DNA of 53,303 bases, from assembly GCA_015069095.1 (NCBI GenBank), contig SVJH01000015.1, positions 1 through 53,303 on the forward strand, in the 5' to 3' direction. A program made the translations under genes and the position numbers. Below the pieces are notes generated by a model. It had not been told where the DNA came from. It did not search any database and saw only the letters and a program-made list of their open reading frames with translations. Shown here piece by piece: positions 28,336-30,339 of this stretch. How positions within the stretch are numbered: position 1 is the stretch's first letter; each line of letters opens with the position of its first letter. Source of the DNA: Oscillospiraceae bacterium (GTDB lineage Bacteria; Bacillota; Clostridia; UMGS1810).

Positions 28336-28412
28336 CGGGGTTTAGCGCAGTTTGGTAGCGCATCTGGTTTGGGACCAGAGGGCCGGGGGTTCGAATCCCT
28401 CAACCCCGACCA
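28336..28412 (+). tRNA. tRNA-Pro (anticodon TGG)
   Basis: 77 nt. Acceptor CGGGGTT/AACCCCG, discriminator A and encoded CCA. Anticodon loop TTTGGGA on TCTGG/CCAGA stem. T loop GTTCGAATC. Confidence 0.95.
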
Positions 28413-28455
28413 CTTAAGTACAGGTTAACACCTAACAGAAATTGCAAAATTTTTG

Positions 28456-28484
28456 TTGACAAACTTTGTTTGTTATGATAGAAT
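28456..28484 (+). promoter_or_regulatory. Promoter of Val-Thr-Tyr tRNA cluster
   Basis: TTGACA (28456-28461), 17-bp spacer, TAGAAT (28479-28484). Confidence 0.8.
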
Positions 28485-28501
28485 AGTTTTTGCTAGTCTA
28501 T

Positions 28502-28577
28502 GGGCGGTTAGCTCAGCTGGGAGAGCATCTGCCTTACAAGCAGAGGGTCACAGGTTCGAGCCCTGTACCGCCCACCA
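28502..28577 (+). tRNA. tRNA-Val (anticodon TAC)
   Basis: 76 nt. Acceptor GGGCGGT/ACCGCCC, encoded CCA, anticodon loop CTTACAA on TCTGC/GCAGA. Confidence 0.95.
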
Positions 28578-28593
28578 TTTAAAAACTTAATAT

Positions 28594-28669
28594 GCTGGTG
28601 TAGCTCAATTGGCAGAGCAGCTGATTTGTAATCAGCAGGTTGCGGGTTCGAGTCCCATCACCAGCTCCA
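28594..28669 (+). tRNA. tRNA-Thr (anticodon TGT)
   Basis: 76 nt. Acceptor GCTGGTG/CACCAGC, discriminator T, encoded CCA, anticodon loop TTTGTAA on GCTGA/TCAGC. Confidence 0.95.
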
Positions 28670-28676
28670 TTTTTTT

Positions 28677-28761
28677 GGGGAGGTTCCCGAGTGGCCAAAG
28701 GGGGCAGACTGTAAATCTGTTGCGTCTCGCTTCGGTGGTTCGAATCCACCCCTCCCCACCA
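28677..28761 (+). tRNA. tRNA-Tyr (anticodon GTA)
   Basis: 85 nt with a long variable arm (class II). Acceptor GGGGAGG/CCTCCCC, encoded CCA, anticodon loop CTGTAAA. Confidence 0.95.
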
Positions 28762-28770
28762 TATAAAAAA

Positions 28771-28804
28771 CCTCTTTTGTCTACCAAGACAAGAGAGGTT
28801 TTTT
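28771..28804 (+). terminator. Terminator of tRNA cluster
   Basis: 12-bp stem (28771-28782 with 28787-28798), ACCA loop, followed by TTTTTT. Confidence 0.9.
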
Positions 28805-28812
28805 ATAATGAT

Positions 28813-28969
28813 ATCCGTTCTATGCAGAACGGATGATATATCTTCGATATGATGTCTGCTTTGCAGATGATATACGCTTCGCGTATGAAGAGAACGGATA
28901 TTATATCATACTTGCGGTAAGCAAGTATATCATGCGGCAGAGCCGTATATCATATTGCGAAAGCAATAT
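28813..28969. repeat. Hairpin array 1 (TGATAT/ATATCA spacers)
   Basis: Seven short stem-loops of unrelated sequence stand side by side: ATCCGTTCT..AGAACGGAT (28813-28834), ATATC-TTC-GATAT (28838-28850), TCTGC-TTT-GCAGA (28855-28867), ATACGC-TTC-GCGTAT (28872-28886), ATACTTGC..GCAAGTAT (28908-28928), ATGCGGC-AGA-GCCGTAT (28932-28948) and ATATTGC-GAAA-GCAATAT (28952-28969). In the left half they are joined by ATGATAT, in the right half by its complement ATATCAT. A second AGAACGGAT (28891-28899) can pair with the first arm. The array lies between the tRNA terminator and the four-helix-bundle gene. Confidence 0.85.
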
Positions 28970-29024
28970 ATCATTGAAAAATGCAACATTTAATGATAAA
29001 ATTTACTCGAAAGAAGGTGCGTTT

Positions 29025-29378
29025 ATGTCTGAAAACAAATTATTGGATATGTCTTTTGAATTTGCAGTTGCTATTGTAAATCTTGTCGATGGTGTAACTG
29101 CACCCAAAAGTTCTTATATGACCGATCAGCTTGCAAGATCAGGCACATCTGTCGGAGCGAATATCCACGAGGCACAGTATGCACAAGGCAAAAAGGATTT
29201 TGTTTCAAAATTAGAGATTGCACTCAAGGAGTCTAACGAAACAAGTTATTGGCTGAAATTGATGTATGAAACAAAAAGAATAGATATTACTACTTATCAA
29301 TATACCGAGAAATTATGTGGAAATATCCGCAGACTTTTGATTGCTTCCTGCAAGACAGCAAAGGAGAATGCAAAATGA
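29025..29378 (+). CDS. Four-helix-bundle protein (S23/Avd-like)
   Basis: 117 aa from ATG 29025 (GAAGGTG six bases upstream); the open frame extends upstream through the hairpin array but that part is not protein-like. Core motifs of the family: LLDMSFEFAVAIVNLV, YMTDQLARSGTSVGANIHEAQYAQGKKDFVSKLEIALKES, ETSYWLKLMYE. Relatives are the protein encoded in 23S rRNA intervening sequences and the Avd accessory protein of diversity-generating retroelements, which binds nucleic acid as a pentamer. No reverse transcriptase or variable repeat is near. ATGA overlap with the next gene. Confidence 0.88.
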   Translation: MSENKLLDMSFEFAVAIVNLVDGVTAPKSSYMTDQLARSGTSVGANIHEAQYAQGKKDFVSKLEIALKESNETSYWLKLMYETKRIDITTYQYTEKLCGNIRRLLIASCKTAKENAK

Positions 29379-30034
29379 TTGCTATTGAAAACTTTATGAA
29401 TATATTTCTCAATGTCTTGAACGATACTTTTAGAGAGCGTGTTTGGTTTGTTGGTTTACAAGGCAGTTATGGTCGTGACGAAGCAACAGAAACAAGTGAC
29501 ATTGATGTTGTTGTAATTATCGACGAATTGTCTGCTATGGATATCCAAACTTATAATGATATGTTGGATACTCTGCCTCACAGAGAACTGATTTGTGGTT
29601 TTATTTCAGGCAAAGAAGAGATTATGAATTGGGAGCCATCCGACCTTTTCCAGTTTTGCCACGACACCACACCAATCAAGGGAAGCCTTGACGAAGTAAT
29701 GGCAGTTATTGACGAAAGTGCTGTGAACAGGGCGATCAAAATCGGTGTCTGTAATATATACCACGGATGTGCTCACAATATGCTTCATGAAAAAAGCGAA
29801 GATATTTTGCGAGGGTTATATAAATCGGCTTCTTTTGTTGTACAGGCAATTGCTTACAAGCAAACGGGGAGCTATATCAACCGTCAAAAAGAATTGCTCC
29901 AAGTTGTATCTTCCAATGAACAGGTCATTGTTGAAACATTTATGAATTTGAAAATTGGCGGAGCGATAGATTTTAATTTGATGTCCGAAACATTGTTTTC
30001 TTGGTCAAAGAAATGGATTTCAGAAAACAGTTAA
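29375..30034 (+). CDS. Nucleotidyltransferase-domain protein
   Basis: 219 aa, coupled by ATGA overlap to the four-helix-bundle gene. N-terminal polymerase-beta-type NTase: LQGSYGRDEATETSDIDVVV with the GS...DxD motif (about residues 29-47). The C-terminal half is all-helical, of HEPN or substrate-binding type (GVCNIYHGCAHNMLHEKSEDILRGLYKSASFVVQ). Such proteins transfer NMP or AMP to small molecules or proteins, as aminoglycoside adenylyltransferases or MNT antitoxins do. Exact substrate unknown. The pair lies between two hairpin arrays and may be a cassette. Confidence 0.82.
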   Translation: MIAIENFMNIFLNVLNDTFRERVWFVGLQGSYGRDEATETSDIDVVVIIDELSAMDIQTYNDMLDTLPHRELICGFISGKEEIMNWEPSDLFQFCHDTTPIKGSLDEVMAVIDESAVNRAIKIGVCNIYHGCAHNMLHEKSEDILRGLYKSASFVVQAIAYKQTGSYINRQKELLQVVSSNEQVIVETFMNLKIGGAIDFNLMSETLFSWSKKWISENS

Positions 30035-30100
30035 ACTAATTCAAATTTGTGAGTAGGTAGATAGATTTACGCATCAAATTACGTTTTTTTCAATGAAGCA

Positions 30101-30256
30101 TTCCTGCGGAACATTAAGTAGCCTCAGGCTATGAAGTCGCTTCGCGAATGATGTGTGCCTTGCGGCACATTTTGGAACGCTTCGCTTCATAAAGAATGCA
30201 AAGCAGATTTGCATTATAGTGGCAAAGCCACTGCTTCATATTTGCAGAAAGGCAAA
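30101..30256. repeat. Hairpin array 2 (ATGAAG/CTTCAT spacers)
   Basis: A second set of short hairpins follows the nucleotidyltransferase gene: TTCC-TGC-GGAA (30101-30111), TAGCC-TCA-GGCTA (30119-30131), TCGC-TTC-GCGA (30137-30147), GTGCC..GGCAC (about 30155-30168), ATGCAAA..TTTGCAT (about 30196-30214), AGTGGC-AAA-GCCACT (about 30218-30232) and ATTTGC..GCAAAT (about 30240-30257). Spacers are ATGAAG-like on the left and GCTTCAT on the right, so the array is inverted about its centre, as array 1 is, though with a different spacer word. No gene is seen in 30035-30421 apart from this array, a terminator and a promoter. Confidence 0.8.
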
Positions 30257-30310
30257 TGCTTCATTTAAAAGTATATTTTTTAATGTCCTAAACTGTTTGG
30301 TTTTTCCAAA

Positions 30311-30339
30311 AAACGCACTGAATTTCAGTACGTTTTTTT
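30311..30339 (+). terminator. Terminator after cassette
   Basis: AACGCACTG / CAGTACGTT imperfect stem, then TTTTTT. Confidence 0.7.

Follow-up and report, generated by a model that had tools for sequence, protein, structure and literature searches.

A hairpin array of flipped heptamer words paired with an S23-family four-helix-bundle gene: a probable small mobile element, in two copies, beside clostridial tRNA genes

Introduction

What kind of unit places two arrays of short hairpins, each threaded on a constant word that flips to its complement halfway along, on either side of a small gene pair directly behind a tRNA cluster? The question is raised by a 53,303-nucleotide stretch of an Oscillospiraceae bacterium (GenBank assembly GCA_015069095.1, contig SVJH01000015.1), the whole of which we call the window. 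An earlier note, made from the letters alone, had read the two arrays as the paired flanks of one cassette, composed of a four-helix-bundle (4HB) gene and a nucleotidyltransferase (NTase) gene, and had likened it to REP/RAYT pairs. Here we ask what the arrays are, which gene they belong with, and whether the unit is chromosomal or mobile.

Results

Two arrays, two elements

A scan of the full 53 kb in 1327 overlapping windows found flipped-word hairpin arrays in two places and no third (Table 1). Array 1 (28808-28974) carries four copies of ATGATAT, one of them the variant ATGATGT, followed by four copies of ATATCAT, while array 2 uses ATGAAG(C), with variants ATTAAG and ATGATG, and then (G)CTTCAT, some of its words being degenerate. 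Both fold better than shuffled sequence, with z-scores of -5.6 and -4.2 and 0 of 200 shuffles as good. The observation of the earlier note is borne out. The start of the NTase gene overlaps the end of the 4HB gene by ATGA, and the genes around the pair encode a class II tRNA synthetase, a chloride channel, a choloylglycine-hydrolase-family enzyme and a GH127 enzyme (Pfam).

Table 1. Features of the two elements and their surroundings (positions in the window)
Feature	Position	Strand	Remarks
tRNA-Pro, -Val, -Thr, -Tyr cluster	28336-28761	+	ARAGORN; insertion neighborhood, outside the element
Left-end hairpin H0	28762-28807		Immediately 3' of the tRNA-Tyr CCA; core TTTTGTCTACC.AGACAAGA common to relatives at other tRNAs
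Left half of array 1	28808-28889		ATGATAT (variant ATGATGT) alternating with hairpins H1-H4; loops of TTC/TTT type
Center of array 1	28890-28904		H1 3'-arm repeat (AGAACGGATAT) and beginning of the first flipped word
Right half of array 1	28901-28974		ATATCAT x4 alternating with hairpins H5-H7; loops of GAAA/AGA type
4HB promoter	28974-29002	+	TTGAAA-17-TAAAAT; read from the sequence, same geometry in relatives
4HB gene, S23/IVP family	29025-29378	+	117 aa; PF05635 3.6e-23, TIGR02436 2.5e-26
NTase cargo gene	29375-30034	+	219 aa; PF01909 2.6e-6
Array 2	30093-30264		Word ATGAAGC / GCTTCAT; a second element, solo, lacking a 4HB gene of its own
Possible right-end tail	30284-30308	+	TGTCCTAAACTGTTTGGTTTTTCCA; weak match to CATCTAAACCRTTCGGYTCTTCCA of relatives; by inspection
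Terminator-like hairpin	30308-30338		AAAAAACGCACTGAATTTCAGTACGTTTTTT; inverted repeat I11; resembles the left ends of L132/L137

The left array, the 4HB gene and the NTase gene form one element behind tRNA-Tyr. Part of its left-end hairpin H0 may be the terminator of the host tRNA, and within this clade the tRNAs' own terminators frequently begin right at the CCA, which weakens H0 as proof of insertion at that point; nevertheless, the H0 core TTTTGTCTACC.GACAAAA is common to elements behind different tRNAs. The center of array 1 can pair with the H1 5' arm and word 1 (inverted repeat I7; MFE pairing), a layout also found in loci L005, L007, L142-L145 and L149-L161. At the other end, the -35 box (28974-28979) overlaps the final base of the last word.

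Array 2 is a different matter. It is homologous to arrays that lie upstream of 4HB genes in L003/L035 (76-82% identity), and the idea that the two arrays are the ends of a single cassette had to be given up: in relatives the array stands upstream of the 4HB gene, and array 2 is separate. The hairpin that follows the possible tail of array 2 could be either a native tRNA terminator or the left end of a further unit.

Array and gene occur together in clostridial relatives

PF05635 is present in 37 of 98 related genomes. With loci oriented by strand, a flipped-word hairpin array lies within 350 nt upstream of the 4HB gene at 77 of 96 loci, a rate that holds for this clade, since loci were taken for their likeness to the window protein and for having enough upstream DNA; the corresponding counts are 2 of 960 for shuffles and 7 of 358 for other ORFs of the same loci. 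Mean hairpin number is 5.2 in the DNA upstream of 4HB genes, 0.87 in shuffles and 1.39 upstream of the other ORFs. The layout across relatives is mostly fixed, with a recurrent order of H0, four word-hairpin units, the H1 3'-arm repeat, four reversed words with three hairpins between them, and promoter. Covariation, which the earlier note had proposed as a check on the stems, is present in two families, where 15 and 17 pairs show compensatory changes (0 of 500 shuffles had as many), as compared to 1-3 and 2-10 pairs in register-slid controls.

The word itself differs between families (ATGATAT, GTGAAAT, ATGATG, ATGAAG, AGCTAAAT, TCGATAT and others), and word content follows 4HB identity (Mantel r 0.77, n=76, no permutation as high), a correlation which would fit specific recognition of the word by the protein but also plain co-inheritance. 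A sigma-70-like promoter lies 3' of 53 arrays, scoring at least 10 of 12 in 66% of cases vs 1.9% of shuffles, and its -35 box typically begins 5-8 nt past the start of the last word.

Hairpins of DNA or of RNA

Loop type depends on the array half. Among 157 left-half loops, 115 are of the TN(N)C type and 3 of the GN(N)A type; among 120 right-half loops, GN(N)A accounts for 61 and TN(N)C for 2. Once loops are oriented, a C-G pair closes 251 of 275, the GNA type makes up 109 of 175 triloops, and the GNNA type makes up 67 of 100 tetraloops, with GNRA contributing 44 of those 67. Hairpins of the C(GNA)G and C(GNNA)G kind are exceptionally stable in DNA. Because loop type inverts together with the words, and because such loops are stable in DNA, we favor a reading of the array hairpins as DNA, with one strand used per half.

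In a competing reading the array is transcribed, either together with the tRNA or from a promoter of its own, and acts as a structured noncoding RNA, of the kind that Gut-1 was proposed to be, to which the 4HB protein binds; mobility would then be either incidental or RNA-based as in the intervening sequences (IVS) of 23S rRNA. Gut-1 RNA (RF01706) was described as a noncoding RNA from human gut metagenomes (Weinberg 2010, PMC2864571), and each array half resembles the model: the window matches it with 46.2 bits on the plus strand (28806-28878) and 38.1 bits on the minus strand (28922-28996), both under the 50-bit cut-off, and several relatives pass, among them L007 (72.9 bits) and L005 (59.6 bits). 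Part of the clostridial branch is already known as Gut-1 RNA, although the model describes a single array half and takes in neither the second, inverted half nor the 4HB gene nor mobility. In addition to these matches, the RNA reading can draw on the covariation of the stems, on TTGNNN-17-TATAAT promoters seen by inspection at the left boundary of several arrays that do not follow a tRNA, and on Avd, a protein of the same fold that is a subunit of the ribonucleoprotein of diversity-generating retroelements (DGR; 8UB7). But if the array worked as one RNA strand, the inversion of loop type would leave it with good loops in only one half; its loops are GNA triloops and GNNA tetraloops rather than strictly GNRA (44 of the 67 GNNA), and relatives outside the clade have plain heptamers without hairpins. 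We regard the RNA reading as a real but lesser possibility, and favor DNA hairpins in what follows.

A -10 box with a -35 box at 17 nt starts the non-tRNA arrays of L006, L008, L009, L010, L022, L031, L058, L118 and L279, and the DNA upstream of these promoter-led arrays differs between loci; the promoter might be an insertion target or might be needed for transcription. The promoters that read into the arrays of L006, L008-L010, L022, L031, L058 and L118 suggest transcription, and possibly action as RNA.

Distribution points to mobility

The window element (H0, array and 4HB gene) is 74-81% identical to elements of other genomes that lie behind tRNA-Arg (L142), tRNA-Lys (L143) and tmRNA (L145), and 73% identical to L144. 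Altogether 59 of the 96 loci stand behind a same-strand tRNA (16 isotypes) or tmRNA, and some of the remainder follow a -10 box or the end of a gene. The orthologous tRNA-Tyr 3' site, which the earlier note had suggested comparing among related strains, is either empty or holds different array classes in the 20 genomes compared. From this distribution we infer that the array-4HB elements are mobile, and the picture of a genuine, mobile-looking protein-plus-array pair beside tRNA genes has held up.

These same observations bear on the possibility that the array is simply a host operator or terminator, serving a chromosomal 4HB-NTase operon (for instance a toxin-antitoxin or defense pair) inherited by vertical descent. 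The promoter geometry agrees with such a role, and the NTase is weakly similar to MntA antitoxin and PADLOC candidate models, its 21.9 bits against the MntA-type (type VII TA) model lying below the cut-off of 60. However, genomic sites and cargo are varied, solo and tandem copies exist, and the orthologous tRNA-Tyr sites of relatives are empty or occupied by different elements, so we consider host regulation an unlikely account.

Most arrays stand without a gene. Merged Gut-1 loci number 111, in 25 of 98 genomes, and 17 of them lie within 700 nt of a PF05635 gene; by genome, 19 have array and gene, 6 an array only, 18 a gene only and 55 neither (odds ratio 9.7, p 9e-6). The question of whether arrays are equally frequent without the gene therefore has a divided answer: few arrays adjoin one, but arrays concentrate in gene-bearing genomes. 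Gene-less arrays enriched in genomes that carry the gene are the pattern of a non-autonomous repeat. Arrays of one family occur mostly as solo copies, some of which lead directly into a tail, GGCATCTAAACCATTCGGCTCTTCCA, that is found also at the end of other units.

REP/BIME sequences and their RAYT share several traits with these arrays: palindromic units built on a constant foot, pairing in inverted orientation, numerous solo copies and a single cognate protein gene. The REP/RAYT-like logic of the earlier note, with many solo arrays and few gene-bearing copies, survives as an analogy. Taken literally, it would mean BIME-like arrays moved by an HUH (Y1) transposase located elsewhere, with the 4HB gene a passenger. 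We think this very unlikely: no HUH (Y1) transposase was found with Pfam among the two element genes and six neighbors, the constant neighbor of the array is a four-helix-bundle gene instead, the word tracks the 4HB sequence, and the foot is a 7-nt word that varies by family, not GTAG/GGAG.

Signs of how the elements might insert are few. No clean target-site duplication was found among the loci except for one of 16 nt, in L030, where a 4HB gene lies between short inverted repeats and the 5' end of tRNA-Leu is duplicated; this is a single case. L035 has three tandem 373-nt units with truncated 4HB genes, and a nested insertion, for which an exact target duplication was sought, was ruled out there, the copies being tandem and not nested. 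For L009, no empty site was found in genomes of the same genus, its flank being common only to the two genomes that carry the element. Spread by viruses was rejected as a route, the family being rare in IMG/VR (12-13 loci); two gut phage records, L247 (MT835815) and L248 (MT835590), do hold an array with a 4HB gene, one of them behind a tRNA.

Several other small units were seen along the way. A tail CATCTAAACCRTTCGGYTCTTCC(A) closes cassette-like units in L290, L294, L295, L297, L302, L310 and L312 and, in the window's own genome, L298 and L307, often straight after a gene stop and before a terminator-like hairpin; it has 0-5 copies per genome, and a control pattern has 0. In one genome (G010), solo arrays bounded by outer inverted repeats AAATTGGAGTTTA..TAAACTCCAATTT are present in multiple copies (L103-L109). 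Loci L013, L130, L144, L148, L161, L185 and L314 hold another small tRNA-adjoining family with a hairpin such as AAAACAGTCC..GGACTGTTTT, which comprises duplicated tRNA 3' ends, and at L229 and L232 a second copy of the tRNA-Tyr 3' end with its terminator lies downstream of the intact tRNA.

The NTase is cargo

An ORF starts within 90 nt of the 4HB gene at 50 of 95 loci, in 17 of them with an exact ATGA overlap, and the 50 ORFs are nearly all unrelated to one another, with only eight homologous pairs among them. Their Pfam classes include GNAT, NUDIX, methyltransferase, histidine phosphatase and glyoxalase, as well as GDSL lipase, kinase, pyrophosphatase-like, NTase and others, and in these classes, the one basis of the comparison, they resemble integron gene cassettes. 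A homologue of the window NTase, 76% identical, is the cargo of L150, where the 4HB protein is 58% identical and the word is ATGATG. The gene 3' of the 4HB gene is thus exchangeable cargo, and the NTase, which the earlier note had placed at the core of the system, is one such gene among many.

A fold shared with Avd

An AF2 model of the window 4HB protein (pLDDT 92.7) has four helices and matches 2RLD (TM 0.86), 2GSC (Xcc0516; TM 0.85) and the DGR protein Avd (4DWL, TM about 0.8; also 8UB7). Passages of the Coxiella IVS paper, citing Lin 2006, give Xcc0516 as pentameric (PMC4990558), and by analogy the element's protein is probably a pentamer too. The resemblance of PF05635 to Avd has been noted earlier (PMC10053308). 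Avd has the same fold and is probably also a pentamer (4DWL, 8UB7), but identity is 11% and the window element has no reverse transcriptase, none being found with Pfam among its two genes and six neighbors. With neither a reverse transcriptase nor an HUH gene in the element or its neighbors, membership in the DGR or REP/RAYT classes was rejected.

Heptamers frame the gene family across phyla

Beyond the clostridial loci, on plasmids and viral contigs from Cyanobacteria, Treponema, Bernardetia, Chlorohelix and Monoglobus, 4HB genes lie between tandem 7-mers that are inverted from one side to the other and have no hairpins among them; a Nostoc gene, for example, is framed by AATTCGT x4 / ACGAATT x4. 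Among 26 such non-clostridial loci, the best autocorrelation lag (of 4 to 12) is 7 on both flanks in most, the lag-7 signal is strong in 20 of 26 vs 7 of 62 control ORFs, and inverted 11-mers are shared between flanks in 14 of 26 vs 1 of 62. Clostridial 4HB loci without hairpin arrays have a best upstream lag of 7 as well (10 of 10 tested). The word is a heptamer, the family is heptamer-framed across phyla, and the arrays partly match Gut-1 in Rfam, none of which the earlier note had seen; its interpretation was partly right and too narrow.

Two side observations belong here. At L216 (Acholeplasmataceae), hairpin arrays flank one 4HB gene, with GTGCAGT upstream and CTTCAC downstream, an arrangement that may stand midway between heptamer framing and the layout seen in Clostridia. 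Four heptamer-framed 4HB genes (L250, L254, L256, L257) lie amid type I restriction, helicase-methyltransferase and DISARM/BREX-like operon genes.

Tandem heptamers are also found dispersed between genes (cyanobacterial STRR, TAACTGA, GGGAATC) in Cyanobacteria, Bacteroidetes and Xanthomonas, and the passages that describe them state mechanism and function to be unknown, discuss polymerase slippage, and make no link to a 4HB gene (PMC4679880, PMC4692102). One might extend slippage, or template switching, to the present arrays and take both their heptamers and hairpins for artefacts of repeat expansion, the 4HB link being incidental. But the repeats are inverted around one gene family, their layout is fixed, their stems covary, and other gene families mostly lack such framing (7/358 and 7/62 in controls), which makes an expansion artefact highly improbable.

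A close described parallel to heptamer words around a 4HB gene is the 23S rRNA IVS with its S23p ORF (Leptospira, Coxiella), which likewise has a PF05635 protein, inverted terminal repeats and a suspected horizontal spread. In the passages on Coxiella, tandem GACAGAT heptamers precede the S23p ORF, a 28-bp inverted repeat forms the terminal stem, and the heptamers are not generalized beyond that case (PMC4990558); 28 bp is the length of four heptamers. Heptamers and inverted repeats thus occur in both, the window element having inverted 7-nt words. The IVS, however, sits inside 23S rRNA and is excised by RNase III, whereas the window element stands behind tRNA-Tyr, with no rRNA found there in an Rfam search of 27-32 kb, and has hairpins between its words, its own promoter and a cargo gene.

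Discussion

We propose that the window holds two copies of a small mobile element whose autonomous form is an array of inverted heptamer words with a 4HB gene, the protein presumably binding the words, and we judge this account likely to be correct. We speculate that the 4HB protein binds the heptamer words as the ends of the element, that solo arrays are also acted on by it, in trans, and that movement proceeds via single-stranded DNA that folds into the array hairpins. On this account, 23S rRNA IVS whose ORF belongs to the same family of proteins would be copies that came to lie inside rRNA. Since the last word abuts the -35 box, a word-binding 4HB protein would cover its own promoter and might thereby repress it, in a form of autoregulation. 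The PF05635/S23 four-helix family is not known to have a catalytic site, which we have counted against the mobile-element reading.

A broader proposal, which we hold to be evenly balanced between right and wrong, is that the S23/IVP 4HB proteins are the dedicated proteins of a mobile-element class that spans phyla and has heptamer arrays as its ends. Such a class would yield the rRNA IVS, Gut-1, the heptamer-framed 4HB genes and perhaps the dispersed heptamers, by an ssDNA or RNA route and without a known transposase.

Although IVS, Gut-1 and heptamer repeats have each been described on their own, we rate the protein-plus-word-array pair as new as a system; no description of the link between the 4HB gene and the array was found in the open-access literature. 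The finding connects matters that have been studied apart, namely the origin of the 23S rRNA IVS, the Gut-1 motif and possibly the dispersed heptamers of Cyanobacteria, Bacteroidetes and Xanthomonas. It also touches the function of the S23 protein, an open question since about 1990 in a family that has solved structures (2RLD, 2GSC) but no assigned function, and it makes a prediction, that every four-helix protein of this kind would bind its own heptamer array. More generally, it points to a cargo-bearing mobile element without a recognizable transposase or recombinase, and could account for several bacterial repeats that have so far gone unexplained.
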